A stretch of DNA of 64,000 nucleotides from a virus. The notes beneath the pieces are model-generated. The model was not told where the DNA came from. It did not search any database and saw only the letters and a program-made list of their open reading frames with translations. The DNA is taken from positions 1-64,000 of IMG/VR virus record IMGVR_UViG_3300045974_000067, one strand, 5' to 3'. Shown piece after piece: positions 601 through 59,614 of this stretch. Made by a program: the position numbers and the translations under genes. Within the stretch, counting starts at the first letter, position 1, and each line of letters begins with the position of its first letter.

Positions 601-3207
601 TTAACCTAACTTCTCAAATTGATCAATAGGTGCAGCTTCCATATGTACTAAACGACCTGTCTCATGTACATAATACGCACCTTCAACTGGCCCTGTAAGA
701 CCTATAGTACGACTCTTTAATACTGACATTAAAATAGAGTTTCTAACATCTTCATCTGGATCTAACATATTTCTAGCAAATGCAATAATATCAAAGCTTA
801 CTTGTTTAATACTACCACTACCACGGATATCATCCATGTTAGGTAATCTTCCTTCTTCAAAACTTTTCTTGCCTACTGGTGCTTTACGAAGATGGCTTAC
901 TAATCCTACCCAGACTTCATGACGTTTTACAAGACGCAATAAATCATTCATAATCTTATCTATTGCTTCATTTCCAACTAAGTCTTCAGCACCTTCAGAA
1001 ACTAGGATAGTAATGTGATCAATAATTAAATATTTACAGCCTACCAAACACATATACTCTAGTTGATCTAAAATAGAATCATCTTTAATAGAGCCTTGAT
1101 GGTCAAGCAATACTACTCTATCATCACCAAAGACTTTATCAAAGCCTACTTTAAGTTCATCTTCAGGTATTTCAGTAAATGCTGAATTTTTGTTAATAGC
1201 CATCCCTGAGAGCTTAATTCCTGTTTCGGCTGGAGACTCTTCGAGGGAGATAATACCAAGCTTATCTTTTGTTGTAGCGAGTACATGTAATCCAATCTCC
1301 CGCATAATGGTGGACTTACCGCTATTATGTGTAACAATAAAATTACCAAGTACAAATCTACCGTCACCATCTAACTCAAAACCATAAAAATCATCAATAC
1401 TTAAATTAATAATTTTAAATGAATATCTATGTGGATTTTTAATTTGAGCTCTTGGTCTTGCTTGTTTCCTAGGAAGTACAGTAGGGATTAATTCTAAATT
1501 TTCTCCAGATAACCATACTCTAAAGCAATTTCCAAATTTATTATTTTGTTGTTTTCCTTTAGTAGTTGTATATCCTAGTGACTTAGCTAATCTAACAAAT
1601 TGGTCAGTAATTAATTCACTTTTCTGTGAGAACTCAAACATATTTTTAGCAGTATCATAAGAACCATCTGTGTCTAATAAGCCAGCCAATAATGCCAACC
1701 TATCCTCTATATTACTTGTTAAGTAGATCTCAGGAATATGTTTGTTATTTATAAGATTTAAGTCCTTTAATATAACATGTACACCTCTAAAACTCCAAGC
1801 AAAATCAGATGACTGTTTTTCGACATCAAAGCCAAGTTCTAATAATTTATTAGGTATTTCTATATCGTTAGAGGAAATTCTACTACCAGCAGAATATCCA
1901 TCACCTAACCAAACACCAATTGCATATGGGTGCATTGGTAGTTCTTTTTTAGAAAATTCTAGCATTGAAGTTTTAAAAGATTTACTTAGATGTTTTCTTT
2001 TATCAGACCATAGTAAATAGTCAACAACACTTACATCTACTATTTGATCTTTAGACAAACCCCATCTACCTTCATGATCATTATTTACTAAACTTAATAC
2101 ATGGTTAATATTACAATCAAAATAATCACCATCTCTTAATTGTACTCTAACCATTGATTCTTTACCGCGATATAGTTGTTTTACAGTTCTGGGTAAATTA
2201 TCTGGCCCCATTACTTGTTCATTTATTTCAATATTTTGAATCTTTTTAATGCTACCATCAAACATTAAGACTTCGGTATCATAAGCCAAACAGCCTGTAC
2301 CAGAAATAAACAAAGCTATTTCACCCATACGCATACCACGAATTTTCTTATTAATACCACTAAGACATTCTGGATATGGTACAGATTCTACTAGATTACG
2401 TTTTTGTATAGCTTCCCAAATTTCTTCTTTCTTAATAATACCTACAGGAGACCAAGCAGCAGCATCCCAAATACATTGAAGCAGCCTATCACCACCTAAC
2501 TTTACATATACTTCATTAGCATCTTTGAAGGGCGGTTTCCATATCTTTACTTTATCAATTCCAATAATACGAATAGCTTTTTGTGTAGCTTCTTCACCTG
2601 CTTTATCTGCATCTAATGCTAATACAACTTCTTTGAAAGATCTAATCCAGTCACGATGCTCTAATAAATCTTTAGTTGCAGCTGCAGATGAGATTGATAT
2701 TACTGGATAAAACTTATTCTTATACTTATCATAATTAGCCTGTGCAATAGTTAATGCATCTATTTCACCTTCTGTAATAATTAGTCTTTTACCAGCACCA
2801 TTGAATAGTTCTCGACCAAATAAACCACCAGCATTACCTATCCAAACAAAAGACTTTGGTAAAGAACGTTTCTTATAGCCGCCACCAGAGTATGGATAAT
2901 AGTGTGCATTAATTTCACCATCAGGGCCATAGCTAACTTTTACATTGTAGAACTCACATACTAGTTTCTCAATCTTACGATCTCTAAAACCTCGAGAAGG
3001 GTAAGTGTCACGTATCTCTTCAACTGTTTCTTTTGAAAATACTTTAGGCTCTCTAACAGGAGTTTCTACAGTACTATCATGGTCAGCTTTAAAGTGTGTA
3101 CTGCAACTAAAACAGAAGCTAGATCCATCTTCATACATAGATCTAGCATCACTACTGCCACACTCTTCACTTAAGCATGGCAGTTTGTATTGCACAATTT
3201 TACCCAT
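601..3207 (-). CDS. T7 gp4-like primase-helicase interrupted by an intein
   Basis: The 868-residue precursor primes and unwinds DNA at the phage fork. Residues 11-35 carry a zinc-binding set of cysteines (CLSEEC, CFSC). A Toprim primase domain follows, with IITEGEIDAL (about 143-152) and LALDADKAGEE (about 196-206). The RecA-like helicase has Walker A (SGTG/SGKST) split by an intein at residues 306-628, a Walker B-like YLIIDH (about 726-731), and LVSHLRK (about 769-775). Removing the 323-residue intein leaves about 545 residues, close to T7 gp4 (566). It belongs with the DNA polymerase, exonuclease and SSB genes upstream. The ATG is followed by a normal zinc-finger start and the gene overlaps the wHTH gene at its 5' end. 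Confidence 0.93.
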   Translation of the reverse strand: MGKIVQYKLPCLSEECGSSDARSMYEDGSSFCFSCSTHFKADHDSTVETPVREPKVFSKETVEEIRDTYPSRGFRDRKIEKLVCEFYNVKVSYGPDGEINAHYYPYSGGGYKKRSLPKSFVWIGNAGGLFGRELFNGAGKRLIITEGEIDALTIAQANYDKYKNKFYPVISISSAAATKDLLEHRDWIRSFKEVVLALDADKAGEEATQKAIRIIGIDKVKIWKPPFKDANEVYVKLGGDRLLQCIWDAAAWSPVGIIKKEEIWEAIQKRNLVESVPYPECLSGINKKIRGMRMGEIALFISGTGCLAYDTEVLMFDGSIKKIQNIEINEQVMGPDNLPRTVKQLYRGKESMVRVQLRDGDYFDCNINHVLSLVNNDHEGRWGLSKDQIVDVSVVDYLLWSDKRKHLSKSFKTSMLEFSKKELPMHPYAIGVWLGDGYSAGSRISSNDIEIPNKLLELGFDVEKQSSDFAWSFRGVHVILKDLNLINNKHIPEIYLTSNIEDRLALLAGLLDTDGSYDTAKNMFEFSQKSELITDQFVRLAKSLGYTTTKGKQQNNKFGNCFRVWLSGENLELIPTVLPRKQARPRAQIKNPHRYSFKIINLSIDDFYGFELDGDGRFVLGNFIVTHNSGKSTIMREIGLHVLATTKDKLGIISLEESPAETGIKLSGMAINKNSAFTEIPEDELKVGFDKVFGDDRVVLLDHQGSIKDDSILDQLEYMCLVGCKYLIIDHITILVSEGAEDLVGNEAIDKIMNDLLRLVKRHEVWVGLVSHLRKAPVGKKSFEEGRLPNMDDIRGSGSIKQVSFDIIAFARNMLDPDEDVRNSILMSVLKSRTIGLTGPVEGAYYVHETGRLVHMEAAPIDQFEKLG
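1324..2292 (-). mobile_element. LAGLIDADG intein in the helicase Walker A motif
   Basis: Codons 306-628 of the primase-helicase form a full-length intein. It begins with Cys (CLAYDTEVLMFDG, block A), has a block B with N-x-x-H (CNINHV, about 365-370), two LAGLIDADG-type endonuclease motifs (YAIGVWLGDG at about 428-437 and LLAGLLDTDGS at about 506-516), a block F region (DDFYGFELDGDGRFVL) and the C-terminal VTHN followed by extein Ser+1. Splicing would join G305 to S629 and rebuild SGTGSGKST. The insertion sits at the most conserved site of the ATPase, as is usual for inteins in phage helicases and terminases. Both nuclease motifs retain an acidic residue, so the homing endonuclease may be active. 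Confidence 0.95.
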
Positions 3208-7106: not shown

Positions 7107-7192
7107 TGGTCGGACTGGAGGGATTCGAACCCTCATGCGATTAAGCGCTGGATTTTAAATCCAGAGTGTCTTACCAATTTCACCACAGTCCG
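7107..7192 (-). tRNA. tRNA-Leu (UAA), with encoded CCA
   Basis: The minus strand folds as a class II tRNA. The acceptor pairs CGGACTG with CAGTCCG. The anticodon stem CTGGA/TCCAG encloses TTTAAAA, giving anticodon TAA (7155-7157). A GCG-CTTAAT-CGC variable arm fits leucine, and the T arm is GAGGG-TTCGAAT-CCCTC. ACCA follows the acceptor stem, so the CCA end is encoded. UUA would be a common codon in this AT-rich genome. Confidence 0.96.
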
Positions 7193-7200
7193 TTTAAAAA

Positions 7201-7764
7201 TTAAGAATGTTTTCTTGTGCTACGAGAAATTCTATACGGTACATTTGTATAAGTTTTAGAATTTAACATCTGGACAACAGCTTTTACAAGCATACCTGTT
7301 TCTTTTATGATCTCTTGTTTAGATATTTGGTAGGTATCGTATAGAGTTCTATACTTTAAAACTTGTTCATCTGTTAACTTAGACATTCCATTATTAGCGC
7401 CTGAAACATCTAGTTCTTTTAGATGTTCTCCGTACTTAATACCTAAAACATCAACAGAATGCCTAGCATTTGCATGTTCAGTTATCGCCTCTAAATTCTC
7501 ATAACGATTATTAAGTTTATCTCCATCAATATGATTAATAACGTAACCATCAGGAATATTGTAATCAATATGAACCATATAAACAAGTCTATGGACAGGA
7601 TATGTTTTTCCAAACATATTTATACGTTTATAGCCGCCTGTAATAAACCCTATTTCTTTTGCTGTTATATTATTAACTACAATACCGTCCTTAGATACAT
7701 TGATAACACCTTCTACAACTAAGTCTAAGAAGAACTGATCTCTTTCAATTGTTGATTTAGCCAT
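7201..7764 (-). CDS. HNH homing endonuclease
   Basis: A 187-residue protein with the phage HNH pattern: VHRLVYMVHI, DGYVINHIDGDKLNNRYENLEAITEHANARH (split here as VINHIDGDKLNN and YENLEAIT), where His and Asn of the metal site are present. The C-terminal KLTDEQVLKYRTLYDTY reads as a NUMOD-type HTH DNA-binding module. It lies directly upstream of the tRNA-Leu gene. Free-standing HNH genes of this kind spread by cutting intergenic or nearby target DNA. Confidence 0.88.
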   Translation of the reverse strand: MAKSTIERDQFFLDLVVEGVINVSKDGIVVNNITAKEIGFITGGYKRINMFGKTYPVHRLVYMVHIDYNIPDGYVINHIDGDKLNNRYENLEAITEHANARHSVDVLGIKYGEHLKELDVSGANNGMSKLTDEQVLKYRTLYDTYQISKQEIIKETGMLVKAVVQMLNSKTYTNVPYRISRSTRKHS

Positions 7765-10162: not shown

Positions 10163-10867
10163 TTAAATATGCTTCCAAGTTGATCCATCTATTACACAAC
10201 GTATTGTAGTAGAATCAACATCGAACATCTTAGCTATACTATAATTCGTAAAACCATCTGCATTTAATTTACGAATAATCGGTATATTGCTACTAGTTAA
10301 TTTATTTGATAAATTACCAATACTTACAGAATGCATTCTATTTTCTAAAGAAGAGACCCATTCTAGATTAATTAATTTATTATTTAATTTATTTGCGTCT
10401 ATATGATTAACTTGTGGCCTATTTTCAGGATTCGGAATAAAAGCTAATGCAACTAATCTATGTATACCTGTTTGAATTTGACAGCCTTCAATCCAAACTT
10501 TAGTTTTTAAATAGCCATTCCCATCTATAGCACCATTTATAATGGTACCTTTTTCCAAATTAATCAATCTACCTAAATCAGATACAAGATAAAAATCTCC
10601 AACACTCTTCCATAATTCATTGGAAATACCAATAGAATGATCCAAATTTCTTTTTCTTATTAATTCAGCATCTACAACTAAATTAATATTATCAAATAGT
10701 TCATACGCAATTTTTCTTAAATATATTGACTTTTGATTACTAGTTATTCTCAATGAACCTGAATTAGTAAATGTTGGAACAAGATAAGAGTTAGTTTTAA
10801 AACTAAAAACATATCCTGTATTAGATAGAGAAAAGTTATCTCCAAAATCTTTCCAAATTTCATTCAT
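10163..10867 (-). CDS. HNH homing endonuclease with NUMOD-like modules
   Basis: A 234-residue protein. Residues about 65-125 hold a NUMOD4-like segment (LWKSVGDFYLVSDLGRLIN) followed by HNH: GIHRLVALAFIPNPENRPQ, VNHIDANKLNNK, LEWVSSLENRMHS. A C-terminal helix-turn-helix (NADGFTNYSIAKMFDVDS) would bind DNA. The N-terminus repeats a degenerate NUMOD-like unit (IWKDFGDNFSLSNTGYV). It is wedged between the DNA polymerase and the DUF3310 gene, and unlike its neighbours is a typical selfish gene. Confidence 0.88.
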   Translation of the reverse strand: MNEIWKDFGDNFSLSNTGYVFSFKTNSYLVPTFTNSGSLRITSNQKSIYLRKIAYELFDNINLVVDAELIRKRNLDHSIGISNELWKSVGDFYLVSDLGRLINLEKGTIINGAIDGNGYLKTKVWIEGCQIQTGIHRLVALAFIPNPENRPQVNHIDANKLNNKLINLEWVSSLENRMHSVSIGNLSNKLTSSNIPIIRKLNADGFTNYSIAKMFDVDSTTIRCVIDGSTWKHI

Positions 10868-16683: not shown

Positions 16684-16711
16684 ATATAAGATACCATTAT
16701 TTGCGAATATT
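16684..16711 (-). promoter_or_regulatory. Class B promoter-like repeat
   Basis: Minus strand CGCAAATAATGGTATCTTATA, split as CGCAAATAA and TGGTATCTTATA. It is shared with repeats at 17325, 57674, 58766 and 59592, each 25 to 250 nt upstream of a minus-strand gene. It overlaps the stop codon of the 45-residue gene. Promoter function is inference. Confidence 0.55.
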
Positions 16712-17324: not shown

Positions 17325-17348
17325 ATATAAGATACCCTTATTTGCGCT
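17325..17348 (-). promoter_or_regulatory. Class B promoter-like repeat upstream of the lysin
   Basis: Minus strand AGCGCAAATAA followed by GGGTATCTTATAT, 25 nt before the lysin ATG. The close match to the copy at 57674 (one base difference in 20) outside coding sequence argues for selection. Promoter function is inference. Confidence 0.6.
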
Positions 17349-41423: not shown

Positions 41424-42608
41424 TTAGGAGTGAAACACAGGTAAAATCCCAAGAGACAAGGCTGAAGTAGCCTTACGCTTCCAGACACCCTTTGTAGTTG
41501 CATCAAGAGTGGTGTCAACCAGCGCTTCTTGAGTAGTGCCAGTAATCACGGCTTGATAGTCAACATCTGACGGGAACTTGGTAGCATCGCCAGTCCAATC
41601 ATAACCAGCCGGATGAGCAACATATCCCCAACGGTACCAAATATCAGTAGAACCGCCACCCTTGTATGCACGTGCATCACGGTAGATTTCAGTCGGGGTA
41701 GGAACTGCCAGAGCTTGCATGGCAACAGAGCCAGGAAGCACAACAAAGGAAGTCTTAGTACCAACGATATCTACACCTGCACCGCCGTTAAGAGCAGCAA
41801 GTTGTGCACTGCTAAAACCTTGTGAGGCACGAGTTTGAATCAGACGGAATTTACCACCAAAGATAGTAGTAAATGTGATATTACCATCTACAACACCAAC
41901 ATCATCCGTCAAATTAGCTGAACGGAAAGATGCAACAGTCTCAGGTGATACGACCAAATAAGCATACTCAGGTTCGTAATCCTTCCATGCAGCACCAATA
42001 GCCTTCAGGAAGCCTTCAGCACGAGCAGCACCTTGAATAGCAGTAGTAGCTGCAATAACAGGAGCAGCACTCCCCAGATCCACATAGAATCCATAACGAG
42101 CACTAGTAGGATCATTATCAAAGGTCTGACCACCAAGACCAGCAGAGCCAGAGCCAGTAGCCGCACCATTCAGAGCTTCACTAATAGCAACACCTTTCAG
42201 AACTGCAAGAATAGCATTATGCTCATCTTGTGCACGAGTTTCTGAGAAGTCACGACCAATCTTAGCCAGACCGTCTTGCTGTGTAACGATTTGCTGCATA
42301 TTAACAGAAGTAGCACCATGCGTACGAACAGTCTTAATATAAGTACTATAGTCAGACGCAAAGGTAGTACCAGTGCCATTAGTAGAGTCAGTCAGAGAAG
42401 CAACATTGATAGTCGGGTTCAAAGGTTTGAACCAACGGACTTGACCAATGAAAGTTTCAGTAGACGTATCGATGTTGGGATTAGTTCCAACAATACCCGT
42501 TCCAGATAATTTCTTAGCACTAGTATATGCTTCGTCAGAGTAAGCAGTAATAGCAGCTTGTAGTACAAAATTTGATGCACCAGCCAAATCAGTTGTAGGC
42601 GTACCCAT
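41424..42608 (-). CDS. Major capsid protein (394 aa)
   Basis: The 394-residue protein follows a scaffold-like gene and precedes the connector gene, the usual place for the major capsid protein. It has alternating Ala/Gly-rich strands and helices (AARAEGFLKAIGAAWKDYEP) and YAYLVVSPETVASFRSANLT, plus AYKGGGSTDIWYRWGYVAHP, patterns seen in P22-like/T7-like or DUF-capsid proteins. No separate protease is seen; the scaffold is a distinct gene. The gene is more GC-rich than its surroundings, in line with high expression. Confidence 0.85.
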   Translation of the reverse strand: MGTPTTDLAGASNFVLQAAITAYSDEAYTSAKKLSGTGIVGTNPNIDTSTETFIGQVRWFKPLNPTINVASLTDSTNGTGTTFASDYSTYIKTVRTHGATSVNMQQIVTQQDGLAKIGRDFSETRAQDEHNAILAVLKGVAISEALNGAATGSGSAGLGGQTFDNDPTSARYGFYVDLGSAAPVIAATTAIQGAARAEGFLKAIGAAWKDYEPEYAYLVVSPETVASFRSANLTDDVGVVDGNITFTTIFGGKFRLIQTRASQGFSSAQLAALNGGAGVDIVGTKTSFVVLPGSVAMQALAVPTPTEIYRDARAYKGGGSTDIWYRWGYVAHPAGYDWTGDATKFPSDVDYQAVITGTTQEALVDTTLDATTKGVWKRKATSALSLGILPVFHS

Positions 42609-42626: not shown

Positions 42627-43325
42627 TTATCTCTTCCCAATTTTCCCTTCCGCTGCTAATTTAATAACCTCGGCTTGAGACATTGAGAATAACGATTTAT
42701 TTTCCCCGGAACCACTTCCTCCACCACCATTATTACTAGAGTTCTGAGTTCCAGCGCCAGATGATGCTTTGACTTTAAACAAAAAAGATTGTTCTTCAGC
42801 AGAAGCAAAGGCAGTAACAAAGTCGTTAATAGAGATTCCGCTACGATGTACCCATTGGTTCTTATCGTTCTGAATTAATTGATCGACAATTTCCTTTTGA
42901 GCCATCTCAAAAGCTTTAGCATTCCTAAAATCTAGACCCTTAAGTGCATCACGCACAGCAACGTCCCTACTTAATTCGGTATTTTGCTTCTCAAGAGCTG
43001 CTAATTTAGCATTAGCTTCTGCAAGTTTCAATTCAGCAATTTCTTTATGCTTTCCTTGTTCTTCCAGACGTTTTAGTTCAGCTTCTTTTTCTTTGCGTTC
43101 AATCTCAGCCTGTTTAGCTAATGCTTCATCACGTTGCTTGTAAGCATTATCTAATAGCTTCTTTGTATCCTTTAATTGCTCTGCAACTTTCTCTTGAACA
43201 AGCTTGGCAATCAGATCCTTATCTTTGTCTTCAACAGACTTCTTAGCATCAGCTTCAGCTTGAGCTAAACGTTCTGCTTCTAACTCTTCAGCAGTTTTCT
43301 GATTGTTGTTTTCATCACTCATCAT
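42627..43325 (-). CDS. Scaffolding protein (232 aa)
   Basis: A charged coiled-coil protein: residues about 10-130 are Ala/Glu/Lys-rich helices (LEAERLAQAEADAKKSVEDK), then a Gly/Ser-rich linker (NNGGGGSGSGE) and a C-terminal helix (SMSQAEVIKLAAEGKIGKR), which is the classical capsid-binding hook of scaffolding proteins. It lies directly upstream of the major capsid gene. Confidence 0.85.
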   Translation of the reverse strand: MMSDENNNQKTAEELEAERLAQAEADAKKSVEDKDKDLIAKLVQEKVAEQLKDTKKLLDNAYKQRDEALAKQAEIERKEKEAELKRLEEQGKHKEIAELKLAEANAKLAALEKQNTELSRDVAVRDALKGLDFRNAKAFEMAQKEIVDQLIQNDKNQWVHRSGISINDFVTAFASAEEQSFLFKVKASSGAGTQNSSNNGGGGSGSGENKSLFSMSQAEVIKLAAEGKIGKR

Positions 43326-43373: not shown

Positions 43374-44748
43374 TTATCCTATACCATAAAAGTAACGATT
43401 ATCTTTAAAGTTCTCTTGAACTGTTGCAAGAATATCGCTCTTTGTTAGTATATCTTCCTTAGTAAGTATTTTACCACCTACTCTTGACCTTCCAGCCACA
43501 GGTATCAGGCCAATATCAATTGCTTCATTTAAGTATTTATCATAAAGGTCTCTTGGGAAACCTCTTGCTAACATCTCATCTAAAGTCGACTTGATAGAGT
43601 CCTTTTCTACAGCATTGGCATAGATGATCCTTAAAGCTTTTCGTGCATCTAGCATATCAGCTGCATTTGTAAAGAATGCGTCATGTATCGTCGAAGTTTG
43701 TATATTACTTTTCTTACCCCATAAATGAAATTGTTTAACAAGAGTGGCATCATTAGAGTGATTACCATTAACACCAAAAGCTGTACGTGCTCTTGTAGCA
43801 TCAGCAATGTCATTTATTTTACCAGGTTTATTTCTAAACTCTTCCCACCAATTAGGTTCAGTTCTTTGTGGTATTTGAAGTATGTTATTTACCCAATTAC
43901 CATTAGCATCTTTATAAGCTAATTTTTCTTCAAAGTTTTGAGTATAATTTTGTTCTAATATTTTGCCATCAAAATTAACCCATGGAATATTAGACCAATT
44001 CTTATCTAATTTATTAGGATAGCCAACTTCGAAACCTTTAGTAATATCCTCAGAAAACAAAGAATAATTACCTATCTTAAATCCTGTTCTACGTCTTGTT
44101 GGTGTTTTAACACCTGTAATTAATTCAGATGTAAAACTACCAGGCACATAACCAGGAATACGATTTAAAAGTTTCTCACGCAGCGCTTCATCTTTAATAC
44201 CCATGATATTATTAAGCCATGTAGGTAATTTAACACCTTTCTTATAGCTACTTAATAAACTCTGCTTTAATATTGATTGAATATCAAAAGCACTTTGTGA
44301 AGGTTTAGAATTTATTAAAAAGTCTTGTGCTAATCTACCAAAATACTTAGTAAAATCTTTTAAAATAGGAGTAGATGACTCTAAATTTTCGCTCATTATA
44401 TTAGCTATTAATTTAAAGTCTTCAGGTGTTACTATTTTATTATAAGCTCTACTAAGTTTATCTACATAGTCTTTAGTCTTACTATCTAGGAAATATAATT
44501 GATCTATTAACTCAGCACCAGGATCTAATCCTTTGTTAAAGACGTCTTTAATATCTTGTCTAAGTGCTTTTAATTCATTATAAGTCTCAGGATCAAAACT
44601 TTCATAGCGTGCCATACGAGCGCTAATCTCACTTAATACAGCATCTCGCTCAGCAGCTTTAACAACAAGTGTTTCAGATTCTTTTCCTAATACCTTAGAT
44701 AGTTTAGCTTCAACACTGAAGATACCAGTGCGTTCACCTGCACCATAC
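43374..44748 (-). CDS. Exon 2 of the MuF-RNA polymerase gene (catalytic C-terminal part)
   Basis: This is the 3' exon of the split gene; 457 codons plus the G that completes the junction codon. It begins YGAGERTG (rest of motif B), and carries FGVNGNHSNDATLV and IHDAFFTNAADM, the equivalent of T7 RNAP HSQDGSH and motif C IHDSFG, with the second catalytic Asp at residue 1437 of the spliced protein. Upstream the frame stays open to an ATG at 44846, but those 33 codons lie inside the intron and include its P9 region, so they are not counted as coding. Alone this exon lacks motif A and cannot be an active polymerase. Confidence 0.92.
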
Positions 44749-45042
44749 CGATTTGTTAAACAGAATTCGTTAGATTCTGTCAATTTACTACAAAGCAAAT
44801 ATAGTTCATTTAAGTTTCCTATATTTGCTTTGTATAAATTCTGCATATTCCTATGCAGTCCAGACTATATCATCATCCCTAAGGATGTCGGGCGCTTCCA
44901 CTGGACTCCCAGTGTACTCCTTTCGGATAGTCGTTGCACCTTACTGTTTTCACAGTCTTGGCTCAGGATTGACCGTTCTGGTTTTTCCCTGAGTTCACCC
45001 GATTGTCATTTAGACATTACTGTCTAAAGCCTCTAATAAATA
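44749..45042 (-). ncRNA. Group I intron in the virion RNA polymerase gene
   Basis: 294 nt. Minus-strand helices: P1 exon CCUU+U with AGAGG (45030-45034), U-G wobble at 45043/45033; P2 at 45009-45028 (8 bp); P3 44998-45002 with 44888-44892; P4 44988-44993 with 44962-44967; P6 44943-44956; P7 44927-44932 with 44863-44868; a 6-bp hairpin at 44899-44914; P8 44874-44887; P9 44841-44858; a perfect 14-bp stem 44791-44804 / 44819-44832; and a 6-bp hairpin 44761-44779. The order P3-P4-P6-P7-P3'-P8-P7'-P9, plus AATCCTGAGCCAAG and GGTGCAACGACTATC, are classical group I core elements. The last base is G. No endonuclease ORF is inside. Confidence 0.95.
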
Positions 45043-48000
45043 AAGGTCACCATGTTCTGCTGTTTGGCAGCTTTACGTAAATCTTTCTCAGTAAGTCCTA
45101 ACTTTTGATTTAATTTAATAAATCTAGGATCATTAAAAGTAGCATTAGCAATTTCATCGTATAGACGCTTCTTTTGGTCAGTAGGTACTACATTACTTAG
45201 GCTAGCTAACTGCTTATTTTTAGTAGTTAAAGCAATAATCTGTGCGCCACTACTAGAAGCATCTTGCTCAAGAGCAATATTAATACGATAGTTAGCAAGT
45301 CTACCCAGGCTTGCGGCACTGTAATCCCCTCCTAAGAATTCGTCTATTTTAGCTGTTTCTAATGCAAGTCTTAATAACTTTCCTTGTTCTTCTCCATCAA
45401 TTTGTGCAAGAAGCTTATTCTCCAAGATAAATCGTATATCATTAGGTTTAGCTCTACGAATAGCATTACCAATAGCAATAAGATCTTTACGATGATCCAT
45501 TGCTATTTGTTGTCTACCTAGAATAGATAATGAATTATGGCTACCTTCTAAAGCATCAGATAGTCCACCTATAAATCCACCTATTTGGTCTTGTAGATTA
45601 TAAAAACCTAATTCACTAAAAGGCTTAGCTTGTGCAGTATTAAGAAATGGTCTGAATGTTTCACCTGATTGTGGCCCTATAAAGCCACGCTCGTATATAC
45701 GGCCACGATGATCAATAAAAGGAGTATTACTAAATGACATATCTTTTTCACGTAGCCAGGACATAGCCTTAAGACGTTCATATGCATCTCCTCTTTCAAC
45801 CATGTATTGTCTGTATATATTTAGATCATTATAATATTGTGCTTTACCTTTATCATCTTGAAAAGTAATTAATTTATTTATAAAGTCATGAAATTCAGGA
45901 TCTACTTTATATTGTGCTTGTGAAGCCCAATTAAGAGCATCAGTCATATTCTTGTCGATAAGTTCTACAGGTAAGTCATTAAAGCTAGAAGTTGAAGTAA
46001 TAGGTATACGAGTGTCTGTAAGTCCAAATATACCATCATCTATAAAATATGTCTTATAGCCTTCTTTAACTAATAATCTATTCTTATCTGTAGTAACACC
46101 TACACGTAAGCCTACTTCTACTTTCCGTGTGAGTCTTGCATAATTTTGTATTCTAGGATCAGTTATCCTAAGATTAACACTAAAAGTATCATAGTAAGGG
46201 CCGAAGTATTGTCCACTCATACGACTCTTCATACGTCTTTTCTGTACACCAAAAGTCTCTAGCTCATAGAAACCTTTGTCTTTAGCATCATCTAACAACT
46301 TGACACCTAAAGTATACCATTCATTCCTACTACCTCGATAGTTAGCAAGATTATATAAGTCACGTCCTAATGCTACAGCAAGTTGATCTCTATCAGGACT
46401 ATCTGCTAATGAGAGTCTCTTAGCAAACTTTAAATAAAAATCTTTTAGATTCTGGTCTGTGAGTCTTATCTTTAATTTAACGGGTATCTTGTAATCTAAA
46501 ATATTACGAAGCTGATTAGCTATTTTAGGTAAAGTTTTATCTTCCCATTTGTTTACAGCTTTAATATTAGCAATAAATGTATCATGTAGTTCTTGTAATT
46601 GTACAGGTCCAAGAACAGGATCAATATAATTAGCTTGTTTTAATTTAAATAGTAGATTAGCATCTTTACGTAACTGTGTTTCCATATAATCTGAAACATT
46701 CATTACATCAAACTTAATCTGACCATTTAAAACAGCTTTTAAATTAGTCCATGCTTCATCATTTTCTCTAAATCTTCCAAATGTTATTCTTAAGTTATCT
46801 GCTATAGCAGCTCTTTCATTAATACTCATTGTATCTGCTAAGTCATTTACAAACTTAGTAATAAATTCTTTATCTTTTTGTTTAAGAACTATACTCTCAT
46901 TAACTAATCTAAGATTATTATTAAGTACACTAGGATTAGGTGCAAACATCCTAGTATCTTCATAACGACTAGTAATAGGATTGAACTTTAAGTTAGCTTC
47001 AGTAGGTGGTGTATTTAGCACACGCGTCTTAGCAGCTTTCTTAGTACCTATTAAATTACCACGATAGTTTGTTAATGATAAAGTACCATCAAGTTCTTGT
47101 GTTTGCAATAAGTAGTATTGTTTAAGAGCAGCAGTCATTTCTGCATCACCAATAATTTCATCTGGTCTAGCAGCACCTAACTTAAGTGTATCTAACTTAT
47201 CTTTAGCAAAAGCAAATCTACGAGTATCACCAGGTAAACTACCAAAGTCACTAGTAGTCATTTGATTAAGTTGTTTAATTCCTACATTAGCACCTGATGG
47301 TGTTATAAATTTATCTAGTTGTAATTGACCACTTTGAAATTTCTGTAATCTATTAAGATCGCCAATATGCTTTATTTGTACTTCTTGTGGTTGTCTAAGT
47401 AGCCAGTCATTATAGCTTTCTTTTAATGGTGATTGTCCATCATAAAAGGCTATTTCTTTATCAGTAAGTCCTGCAAGATTCCTTTTGCGTATCTGAGCAA
47501 TACCTTCATTAGTACCTAATTGATCATAGGACTTAGTAATAGGTATAGTTGTAGAACGGCAATACCAATGAGCAGGTGGCAAGTGTGCAGTATCTCCGAC
47601 AGGATAAATATGTCCATCTCTGCTTGCACATAATGGTGTTGTACGAGAGTCTAATACTGCTACATATTGATAGCCATTTAAAATTTTTTCATTAGCTTTA
47701 TAAACTTGATGATCTGCTTGAGCATATACTGAAGTCATAGATGTTACAGTTAAACCATTAGCTTGATTTTTAGTAATATTAAAAGTACTCGATACAGTTT
47801 TAGCAATAGAAGTCTCATTGAGACCATCTGCAATACCTTTACGTATAATAGCTTCAATACGTATTCTTTCATTCTTGCCTATACCTACCCAACCTTCTTG
47901 CAATACTACATTATTATATAAAGGTTGCTTAAGTACTACATTCTCTGCAATGCTTCTTGGAGGTTGCTTAGTACGCCAAATATTACCAACAGCTTTATCA

Positions 48001-48284
48001 ATATTGTTAGTTGTGAAAGACACTTGATCTTTAAATAAATCTAATAAAGATCTCGAATGCACATTATACGTATTACTAATTGTCTTTTCTATTTCAGTAT
48101 TTAACTTAACTTTAAATTGATCAAAAGTATCACCTTGTAGCTTAGATGAACGGATTAATCCATCTACTCTAACAGCATGACCATCAATAATTAACTCTAA
48201 CTTGCCTTTTGTATTGTCAGTATAGAGTCTAATCATTGCTGCTCTATCTACAGCTTTATCATAAATTTGTGTGTTGGCATTCAT
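45043..48284 (-). CDS. Exon 1 of the MuF-RNA polymerase gene (MuF domain plus polymerase N-terminal and palm motif A)
   Basis: The 5' exon encodes 1080 codons and two bases. Residues about 130-250 form a Mu F-type head-morphogenesis domain: YVAVLDSRTTPLCASRDGH, IYPVG, then PPAHWYCRSTTIPI. The C-terminal part is single-subunit RNA polymerase: DHRGRIYERG (858-867), motif A with catalytic Asp1008 (EQDASSSGAQII), and the start of motif B with R1070 and K1074 (RKAAKQQNMVT). Without splicing the frame ends at 45033 after FIY. Joined to exon 2 it gives 1538 residues and RKAAKQQNMVT-L-YG, with R, K and Y at -12, -8 and 0 as in T7 RNAP. It lies between portal and scaffold, the usual place of a MuF gene. 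A virion-packaged, injected polymerase is inferred. Confidence 0.93.
46465..46484 (-). promoter_or_regulatory. Class A-like repeat inside the polymerase gene
   Basis: Minus strand CCCGTTAAATTAAAGATAAG, one base away from the class A copy at 54465 over 20 positions. It lies in coding sequence (PVKLKI), so chance or codon constraint is possible. An internal promoter would serve the polymerase domain's 3' half or the capsid genes. Confidence 0.35.
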
Positions 48285-48331: not shown

Positions 48332-49960
48332 TTAAGCTGCTTTAAGATTTGAGACATTATTCATCATACTATTCATTTGATTTACTTTATCAGCATAATT
48401 AGGATCAGAATTAGGCTTATTAACTACTTCGTCTTGAGTCATTTCAACTTGGCCTTCTTCATCGTCATAATCAGCAGGTACCATATCGTTCTGCTTGAGT
48501 AGCATAAGCCACAATGTACGAGGAATAAGACCATTCTGATACCACTCTGTAGCGAGCCTAAGCCAATCGGCACCTAGAGGCACAGGATTAAAGTCAGCAG
48601 ATAACTGAAATTCCACATCTGTAGATTTAAACTGTGTACCATAGCGCCAATTTAACATAAATGCAATAATATCAGCCATTTGATTAGAGACTTTAATATT
48701 AAGTGTTCCTAATTGTGCTGTCTGGGCTGCATTACGAATTTCTAATGCTACACCTGATTGCATATTCTCAGGGCTAAGCATACGAATACCTAATCTAGCT
48801 AATTCTTCTATAGTTGCCAATATAGCTCTGTCCATGTCTTGTAAAGCAGCTGTAGGTGTATCCAAGACAGAAGCTGAATCACCTTGTCTAAGCTTAATCC
48901 AAGAACCAAGCCCAGCGTCAACAATAGCACCGAATTCTTCATCTGTAATATCTGCCGCAATAACAGGTGTATAAGTAGCTGCACCTAAGAGTAAATGATT
49001 ACGACGACTAACTTTATTATACAATGCAACTTCACGGTCAATAAGCGGTGTAAGCATAGGCTCAATAATATCAATACTACCATTAAGAGGCCACGCTGGT
49101 ATAACTTTTAGACGCTCACCATTAGAAGTAATATTTTCAATAGTCTCTATTAACTCAAATCCACCATTACCACTTGGAGATGGGCCATTAGAAGCACCTA
49201 CTGTATATTTCTGTTGAATAACACCATTGACTACTGGTATAGCTACATTTTGAGTAGGCTTTTGATACTTACGAATACGATAGTATCCATCTACTATTTC
49301 ATGTACCCATACTGTATCTAATAGTGTAGGGTGAAACTCATTAACACCATATGTTTCTTCATAATTTCTAACAATAACTCGTTCAAGTATTTGTGAACCA
49401 TCTACAGAGGCAACGCTAAGTTTCCAATTAATAACTGACTCAGCATTCCATAATACAGGATATGGTTTAATTGCTAATACATCTTCTCTAGTCATTCCTT
49501 CAGTATTTTCTACTTTAGGATAATCTACGTATACCCAAGCACGGCTAGTCTGCATCTCTTCCCACAATGCGCGATCTAAGAATGATACTAAAGGAGAACT
49601 ATCTTGTGCAAATGCATCCATAATCCATTGGTAAGCATCTGCAGGTGCTGTATCAGGTAATTTAAGTTGTGGTTGCTTCCTAAGTAGTCCACCAATAATT
49701 ATTCGTGCATATTGTGTTACAATACCAGGTAGCTCAGCTTCTGCTTTAAAGAAATTATACTGTGTTTGTGTCATTGATTGAGAGAAAGGAATAAGCAAAT
49801 TTGAGAAGAATAGATTGTCAAGAATACCGTCAAAGTCTTTAACGAATCTTTCTCCATTACAAACTGCACGACTCTTTTCCCATAATTGGTTTATTGATTC
49901 GTAAGATGGACAAGGATCACATACAGTACGTCCTTGTTGAGCGGCATTCACAACACTCAT
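48332..49960 (-). CDS. Portal protein (542 aa)
   Basis: The 542-residue protein has the DUF4055-like portal pattern: QTQYNFFKAEAELPGIVTQY, GGLLRKQPQLKLP, LWEEMQTSRAWVYVDYP, PYPVLWNAESVINWK and a later AIVDAGLGSWIKLRQGD, with LEIRNAAQTAQLGTL. It forms the dodecameric DNA channel at the capsid vertex. It is followed by the MuF fusion and preceded by terminase, the conserved order. Confidence 0.85.
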   Translation of the reverse strand: MSVVNAAQQGRTVCDPCPSYESINQLWEKSRAVCNGERFVKDFDGILDNLFFSNLLIPFSQSMTQTQYNFFKAEAELPGIVTQYARIIIGGLLRKQPQLKLPDTAPADAYQWIMDAFAQDSSPLVSFLDRALWEEMQTSRAWVYVDYPKVENTEGMTREDVLAIKPYPVLWNAESVINWKLSVASVDGSQILERVIVRNYEETYGVNEFHPTLLDTVWVHEIVDGYYRIRKYQKPTQNVAIPVVNGVIQQKYTVGASNGPSPSGNGGFELIETIENITSNGERLKVIPAWPLNGSIDIIEPMLTPLIDREVALYNKVSRRNHLLLGAATYTPVIAADITDEEFGAIVDAGLGSWIKLRQGDSASVLDTPTAALQDMDRAILATIEELARLGIRMLSPENMQSGVALEIRNAAQTAQLGTLNIKVSNQMADIIAFMLNWRYGTQFKSTDVEFQLSADFNPVPLGADWLRLATEWYQNGLIPRTLWLMLLKQNDMVPADYDDEEGQVEMTQDEVVNKPNSDPNYADKVNQMNSMMNNVSNLKAA

Positions 49961-54464: not shown

Positions 54465-54484
54465 CTTATCATTAATTTAACGGG
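54465..54484 (-). promoter_or_regulatory. Class A promoter-like repeat
   Basis: Minus strand CCCGTTAAATTAATGATAAG, preceded by CTCAAG. It shares 19 of 20 positions with the copy at 46465, and extends past the core like that at 25538. It points into the AT-rich block and the 179-residue gene. T7-type origins often include a phage promoter next to an AT-rich stretch, which fits this arrangement. Confidence 0.65.
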
Positions 54485-57673: not shown

Positions 57674-57697
57674 GTATAAGATACTCTTATTTGCGCT
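57674..57697 (-). promoter_or_regulatory. Class B promoter-like repeat
   Basis: Minus strand AGCGCAAATAAGAGTATCTT then ATAC, 29 nt upstream of the secreted paralogue gene and touching the stop of the 44-residue gene. It matches the copy at 17325 at nearly all positions. Promoter function is inference. Confidence 0.6.
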
Positions 57698-58765: not shown

Positions 58766-58793
58766 CTTATAAGATACCCCGTTTAAAATAAGC
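58766..58793 (-). promoter_or_regulatory. Class B-like promoter repeat (diverged)
   Basis: Minus strand TTTTAAACGGGG then TATCTTATAAGCG. It keeps the GGTATCTTATA core of class B but has a different upstream half. It lies in the gene-free stretch, about 230 nt before the 72-residue gene. Promoter function is inference. Confidence 0.45.
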
Positions 58794-59591: not shown

Positions 59592-59614
59592 TTATAAGAT
59601 ACCCTTATTTACGC
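59592..59614 (-). promoter_or_regulatory. Class B promoter-like repeat upstream of the Ala-rich gene
   Basis: Minus strand TGCGTAAATAAGGGTATCTT then ATAA, 45 nt before the gene start. Differs from the 17325 copy at one position in the core region. It is downstream of a class A repeat at 59671 on the same strand. Confidence 0.6.

Follow-up and report, generated by a model that had tools for sequence, protein, structure and literature searches.

A MuF head protein joined to a single-subunit RNA polymerase: a candidate virion-carried polymerase in a group of environmental phages

Can a tailed phage bring its own RNA polymerase (RNAP) into the cell as an extension of a head protein? The question is raised by one gene in a stretch of viral DNA of 64,000 nucleotides, positions 1 to 64,000 of the IMG/VR record IMGVR_UViG_3300045974_000067, which is called the window here. 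Once a group I intron has been removed, this gene encodes a MuF head protein which continues into a single-subunit RNAP, and its product is referred to below as MuF-RNAP. To our knowledge only few phages bring their own polymerase, and each known case of a virion polymerase has altered the view of how an infection can start without host transcription. From the comparisons described below it is probable that MuF-RNAP is a structural and enzymatic fusion which is carried in the virion, reads a promoter-like motif termed P1 and makes a second, free RNAP, which in turn reads another motif termed P2.

The fusion gene, its intron and its relatives

The window contains two open reading frames, 45033-48284 with 1083 residues and 43374-44846 with 490, and between them a match to the group I intron family RF00028 of Rfam (45052-44841, 95.8 bits with a gathering score of 50). 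Splice sites were placed from the conserved U.G pair of the P1 helix of the intron, from the reading frame and from relatives without an intron. Joining the exons yields a stop-free frame of 1538 residues in which R1070, K1074, Y1082-G1083, D1008 and D1437 stand at the numbers given in the original prediction, and the spliced protein proposed there agrees with the intron match, the open frame and the intron-free relatives, where the junction is continuous as K.QNMVTFYGAGER. Two separate genes or one frameshifted gene had also been considered and were ruled out by the RF00028 match and the intron-free relatives. To give a whole polymerase the intron, which lies in polymerase motif B, would have to splice out. 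With 294 nucleotides it is too short to contain a gene for a homing endonuclease. In ESV1 (enhanced biological phosphorus removal (EBPR) siphovirus 1) the same site is occupied by an insertion which carries the HNH endonuclease gp48, and gp47 and gp49 on either side are the two halves of one MuF-RNAP gene. The gene is broken at many sites in the relatives L069, L074, L082, L084 and L085 and in the records G026, G036 and G042, with at least six pieces in G036. Most of the insertion sites in relatives are close to catalytic motifs (residues 988, 1046, 1080, 1105 and 1411, all approximate), and others are at about 246, 692 and 878.

The N-terminal part was recognised as MuF by Pfam (Phage_Mu_F, 54.4 bits with a cut-off of 29.6) and by the head morphogenesis family phrog_241 (1.4e-54, residues 3-486). 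A MuF domain had been predicted at about residues 205-250. Its presence held, whereas its extent had to be corrected to residues 143-247. Homology of the MuF module extends over about residues 1-346, and the polymerase follows. Each of the 28 aligned relatives matched both Phage_Mu_F and RNA_pol (PF00940) within a single open frame. Weak profile matches to a PH1932 regulator and to a CdiA tRNase were taken as chance.

The position of the gene between portal and scaffold, seen already in the original prediction, is a fixed feature of the group, with the portal gene upstream in 85 of 85 loci and the scaffold gene on the downstream side in 87 of 87, counted where the contig allowed a test and with some contigs included twice. 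Tape measure and tail fibre genes in the window are of the siphovirus type. The E-values, the conservation in 84 loci and this fixed gene order together confirm that the MuF-RNAP gene with its group I intron is real and not a product of chance.

A first scan of IMG/VR gave 147 stretches with relatives, most of those among the matches listed being full-length and uninterrupted, and a profile scan of viral contigs, a search which had been suggested as a check for further fusions, gave at least 559. The reading frame is uninterrupted in 52 loci. The group is large, with hundreds of contigs of mostly uncultured, environmental tailed phages. When 84,980 cellular genomes were scanned, MuF-RNAP was matched in one metagenome-assembled genome only, where one of the matches lies on a contig equal in length to one of the phage records, and from this near-absence it looks like a gene of a lytic virus group rather than of prophages. 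The ESV1 relative is 55% identical. In the cultured roseophages DSS3_VP1 (QGH74596.1) and DSS3_PM1 (QGH74736.1) of the Naomviridae the identity is about 30% over nearly the full length. Their records name the gene "minor head protein-like protein" and leave the polymerase half unnamed.

Beyond these phages the MuF module occurs with another partner. The more distant Pelagibacter phage Kolga shares it with 27% identity over residues 1-346, and its gp59 (L386/L294) has a C-terminus resembling a zinc metallopeptidase with the motif HEFAHH (Peptidase_Mx1 9e-5, under the cut-off). This fits a swappable cargo and the known role of MuF proteins in carrying effectors into the virion; their cargo domains are believed to be packaged there and then injected into the cell (PMC5512222, PMC9503650).

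The polymerase module

All motifs of T7-type single-subunit RNAPs are present, namely DxxGR, motif A with its aspartate, motif B (R-x3-K-x7-YG) and motif C (HD), and the four signatures which had been pointed out beforehand (DHRGRIY, D1008, R1070-K1074-Y1082-G and HDAF with D1437) are confirmed, with their invariant residues given in the table. The set from which conservation was calculated comprises 84 loci of 54-66% identity, two of which are pieces of the window itself. Pfam RNA_pol reached 15.3 bits in exon 1, 24.8 bits in exon 2 (cut-off 22) and 40.8 bits with both, and 28 of 28 relatives matched the profile at E 0.01 or better. In the profile alignments D1008 falls on the motif A aspartate of the free RNAP and HD1437 on HDSF of T7 RNAP; DHRGRIY aligns with DFRGR of the free RNAP.

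A comparison with T7 RNAP by structure prediction, likewise proposed in advance, was carried out with the polymerase part of the relative L005, which is 63% identical to the window protein (AlphaFold, 1191 residues, 31 sequences). The model had a predicted local distance difference test score (pLDDT) of 74.7, with 80-95 in the core. Its 50 best PDB matches in Foldseek were all mitochondrial or T7 RNAPs, with E-values from 7.7e-18 to 7e-15, led by POLRMT (7.7e-18), the yeast enzyme (2e-17) and T7 RNAP (2.5e-17), and the virion RNAP of phage N4 was not among these 50. The best viral model match, A0A7S5FRK7, has 1463 residues, which is the length of the DSS3_VP1 protein. The polymerase of this relative is thus predicted to fold like T7 and mitochondrial RNAPs. 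A DNA polymerase I-like enzyme, suggested by a motif B of the Pol A kind (RKAAKxxNMVTxYGAG), was rejected, as motif A (DASSSGxQ) lacks the glutamate of DNA polymerases, motif C is HDAF and not HDE, and the top fold matches are all RNA polymerases.

Judged from these residues the polymerase looks catalytically intact. That it is a dead structural relic might be suspected because the fold comparison showed just 10-15% identity to known RNAPs and because the PF00940 scores are modest, but D1008, K1074, Y1082, G1083, H1436 and D1437 are invariant in every locus covering them, and even copies split by several insertions retain their coding parts, so that a relic appears very improbable.

A second polymerase and two promoter-like motifs

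The window encodes a further single-subunit enzyme, a free T7-like RNAP which is a candidate non-virion polymerase. Among 24 related records all those of at least 49.8 kb, except the partial ESV1, carry MuF-RNAP together with a second, strong PF00940 gene, and the other related records lacking the second RNAP are fragments of 36-47 kb. It is present in 17 full-size records and in all 21 records chosen by the motif P1 described below; DSS3_VP1 also carries both polymerases. This co-occurrence bears on the idea that a cleavage during assembly leaves MuF alone in the virion, while the polymerase acts late in the cell, in late transcription or in the priming of replication. The polymerase is encoded in the head operon and is presumably made late, and large phages are known to process head proteins by proteolysis (PMC10052503). 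However, the infected cell already has a free T7-like RNAP at its service, every relative retains the fusion, even the 30% identical Naomviridae, and none of the head genes searched stood out as a prohead protease gene, in a search which covered part of the open reading frames. Cleavage of this kind is accordingly considered unlikely.

Comparison of intergenic gaps de novo revealed two motifs which occur on the coding strand only. P1 has the form CGnAAA...GTATCTTATATGA with the core GTATCTTATA, and a longer consensus, tgCGnAAAaa..gGTATCTTATATGAaa, was derived from 28 sites. P2 has the form CCCGTTAAATTA, also written CCGTTAAATTA. Five P1 cores were seen in the window with 0.32 expected, and five near-exact P2 16-mers with 0.00 expected. 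A further P1 site lies at 64309, at the genome end beyond the window (L087, G000 63500-69713). A P2-like 16-mer with one mismatch at 46468-46483 on the minus strand, within the coding sequence of MuF-RNAP, could be a chance occurrence or an internal promoter.

The places of the motifs recur in related genomes. Nine of ten genomes examined besides DSS3_VP1 have two to three copies of P1 upstream of the free RNAP, at a distance of 2.0-4.6 kb from its conserved core. One of these genomes has 63% GC, and no copy would be expected there. The exact 10-base core and the outer CGnAAA block are kept in genomes from 35% to 63% GC. In most genomes P2 directly follows the MuF-RNAP gene and precedes scaffold and capsid; in several it stands behind the free RNAP, before the replication genes. 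A short hairpin, the stem of which varies in sequence from site to site, usually follows P1; the mean z was -1.36 as compared to -0.23 for random stretches (p 9e-6), with the reservation that related genomes do not provide independent sites. When 2.9 million IMG/VR viral contigs were scanned for P1 only, using 20 fixed bases, 104 stretches were obtained. Among the long records chosen in this way MuF-RNAP was present in 20 of 21, the exception being a 54-kb fragment, and a PF00940 gene in all 21, so that P1 marks the clade which has the fusion. This fits P1 as the promoter read by MuF-RNAP, but shared descent alone predicts the same outcome.

Table. Features of the MuF-RNAP locus, the free polymerase and the promoter-like motifs (positions in the window)
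Feature	Positions	Strand	Remarks
MuF-RNAP gene	48284-43374	-	1538 aa once the 294-nt group I intron is removed
MuF-RNAP exon 1	45043..48284	-	residues 1-1080 and two bases of codon 1081
Group I intron	44749..45042	-	294 nt; splits polymerase motif B; RF00028 and splice-site placement
MuF-RNAP exon 2	43374..44748	-	remainder of codon 1081 through residue 1538; Pfam RNA_pol 1.2e-5
MuF domain, residues 143-247	47544..47858	-	PF04233 2.4e-14; phrog_241
DHRGRIY (DxxGR motif), residues 858-864	45693..45713	-	D858, R860, R862 invariant in 83/83 aligned loci
Motif A EQDASSSG, catalytic D1008, residues 1006-1013	45246..45269	-	D1008 invariant in 84/84
Motif B R1070-K1074-Y1082-G1083, intron-split	44742..45077	-	K1074, Y1082, G1083 invariant in 84/84
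Motif C HDAFF, catalytic D1437, residues 1436-1440	43671..43685	-	invariant in 75/75 loci covering motif C
Portal protein	48332..49960	-	phrog_145 3e-46
Scaffold protein	42627..43325	-	phrog_206 3.5e-7
Major head protein	41424..42608	-	phrog_247 1.9e-18
Free T7-like RNAP (candidate non-virion RNAP), 753 aa	13330..15591	-	PF00940 6.2e-67; phrog_414 6e-116; T7 RNAP 2.8e-46
P1 core GTATCTTATA	16685..16694	-	about 2.0 kb upstream of the free RNAP conserved core
P1 core GTATCTTATA	17326..17335	-	about 2.6 kb upstream of the free RNAP conserved core
P1 core	57675..57684	-	upstream of small genes
P1 core	58768..58777	-	upstream of small genes
P1 core	59593..59602	-	upstream of small genes, then hairpin
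P2 CCGTTAAATTAATGAT	54468..54483	-	upstream of terminase and head operon
P2	25540..25555	-	gap behind tail-fibre gene
P2	12163..12178	-	upstream of SSB / DNA polymerase genes
P2	59672..59687	-	just upstream of a P1 site

The presence of a second RNAP in full-size records, the P1 sites upstream of its gene and the location of MuF-RNAP in the head operon are as a virion-carried first polymerase predicts, and support it. The free RNAP has to be transcribed before any free RNAP exists. A polymerase arriving with the DNA could do this, and MuF-RNAP is the only phage candidate joined to a virion protein. In the proposed sequence of events the MuF part, as its family and the order portal, MuF, scaffold suggest, would take its place at the portal vertex while the procapsid is being assembled. 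The C-terminal three quarters, presumably an active single-subunit RNAP, would ride in the head as cargo of MuF, a packaging to which the fusion itself points, and would enter the cell along with the DNA. There the injected protein would transcribe from P1 promoters without host RNAP, yielding early genes and the free RNAP, and the latter would transcribe the replication and head/tail operons from P2, including the MuF-RNAP gene for the next virions. This scheme builds on what can be read directly, that is the architecture, the conserved catalytic site, the modelled fold of a relative, the gene order, the co-occurrence of the two polymerases and the motifs with their places. On balance we lean towards the wider view that a clade of lytic siphoviruses runs an all-phage cascade, opened at P1 by a MuF-RNAP from the portal vertex and continued by the second T7-type RNAP reading P2, with P1 as a dedicated promoter class in which an AT-rich core precedes a hairpin that varies in sequence.

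A different division of labour would leave the early genes to the host RNAP and P1 to the free RNAP or a host sigma factor, with a narrower job for MuF-RNAP, for instance in the priming of replication or in drawing the DNA into the cell as it is transcribed. As P1 and MuF-RNAP belong to a single lineage, their link may be inheritance only, and DSS3_VP1 has MuF-RNAP without P1. Yet P1 is conserved from 35% to 63% GC and in this does not resemble a host sigma-70 promoter, and it lies upstream of the free RNAP gene, which its own product cannot make first, for which reasons we regard this explanation as improbable.

Several points weigh against a virion-carried MuF-RNAP reading P1. The case is made from sequences and models. 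P1 has been passed on along with MuF-RNAP within a single clade, and their co-occurrence is no proof that the one is read by the other; the free RNAP or the host RNAP could read P1. DSS3_VP1 and the 43 kb examined of ESV1 yielded no P1 core, and in one related genome (G011) P1 was found only as a one-mismatch variant. The profile alignment with the free RNAP has a probability of just 75.6% because the alignments are shallow. The model of the MuF half is poor (pLDDT 61). Finally, to get through a siphoviral tail the polymerase, with its roughly 1190 residues, would have to unfold, and precedent for this exists only in other virion-polymerase phages.

A P1-like core was likewise not found in Kolga. 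DSS3_VP1, which is a dU-DNA phage, has a repeated motif of its own, GGGTGCGTTAAAGAGGGGGA, with six to nine copies at the starts of gene blocks (L156-L159), a candidate promoter of its free RNAP. Elsewhere in the window, the primase/helicase (Toprim and DnaB, 601-3207, minus strand) has an intein between its halves, as seen from Hom_end_hint (1.7e-19) and a LAGLIDADG homing endonuclease at residues 306-627, and its odd matches to "terminase" PHROG families are probably due to this intein. A lone tRNA-Leu (UAA) at 7107-7192 stands beside an HNH endonuclease gene at 7201-7764, and a second HNH gene at 10163-10867 stands beside the DNA polymerase, all on the minus strand. The genome end beyond the window also holds fragments which, by eye, resemble a ribonucleotide reductase broken by insertions.

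Comparison with known virion polymerases and MuF fusions

Virion polymerases and cargo fusions of MuF are each known, and the combination appears to be new. Among open-access papers, a scope outside which the DSS3_VP1 paper falls, none was found describing MuF fused to a single-subunit RNAP, in line with the initial impression that the architecture had not been described in detail, and the paper reporting the EBPR phages does not mention an RNA polymerase. DSS3_VP1 and DSS3_PM1 as well as ESV1 gp47 and gp49 represent the same fusion as in the window and differ in being annotated as head proteins only. As the two roseophages are in culture the idea can be tested at once, and with P1 and P2 there are candidates at hand for two new pairs of phage promoter and polymerase. 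The role of MuF in ejection is poorly understood, and a widespread environmental group appears to carry a polymerase through it.

If true, this would be a separate solution to the carriage of a polymerase in the virion, beside two others. In N4 (gp50, Schitoviridae) a T7-type single-subunit polymerase is likewise contained within a larger virion protein and a second, non-virion RNAP is made later; the early promoters there are hairpins (PMC12633501). The N4 protein, however, has about 3500 residues with N- and C-terminal domains of its own, no MuF mentioned, and belongs to a podovirus, whereas the protein described here has 1538 residues, a MuF carrier and a siphovirus-type genome and is thus not of the N4 type. 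P23-45 is similar in that a siphovirus has its virion RNAP, gp96, fused to a structural protein and makes pre-early genes including a second phage RNAP with it (PMC10770324), but its RNAPs are two-barrel enzymes and the fusion is to the tape measure, in contrast to a T7-type polymerase fused to MuF. Effector fusions, among them MuF-ART/VIP2, MuF-RelA/SpoT and MuF-PRTase, share with MuF-RNAP that the MuF part carries an enzyme at its C-terminal end, which is presumed to be packaged and then injected; in the available portions of the two papers on them (PMC5512222, PMC7302621) no single-subunit RNAP is described as cargo, while in the window the cargo is a polymerase of about 1190 residues.

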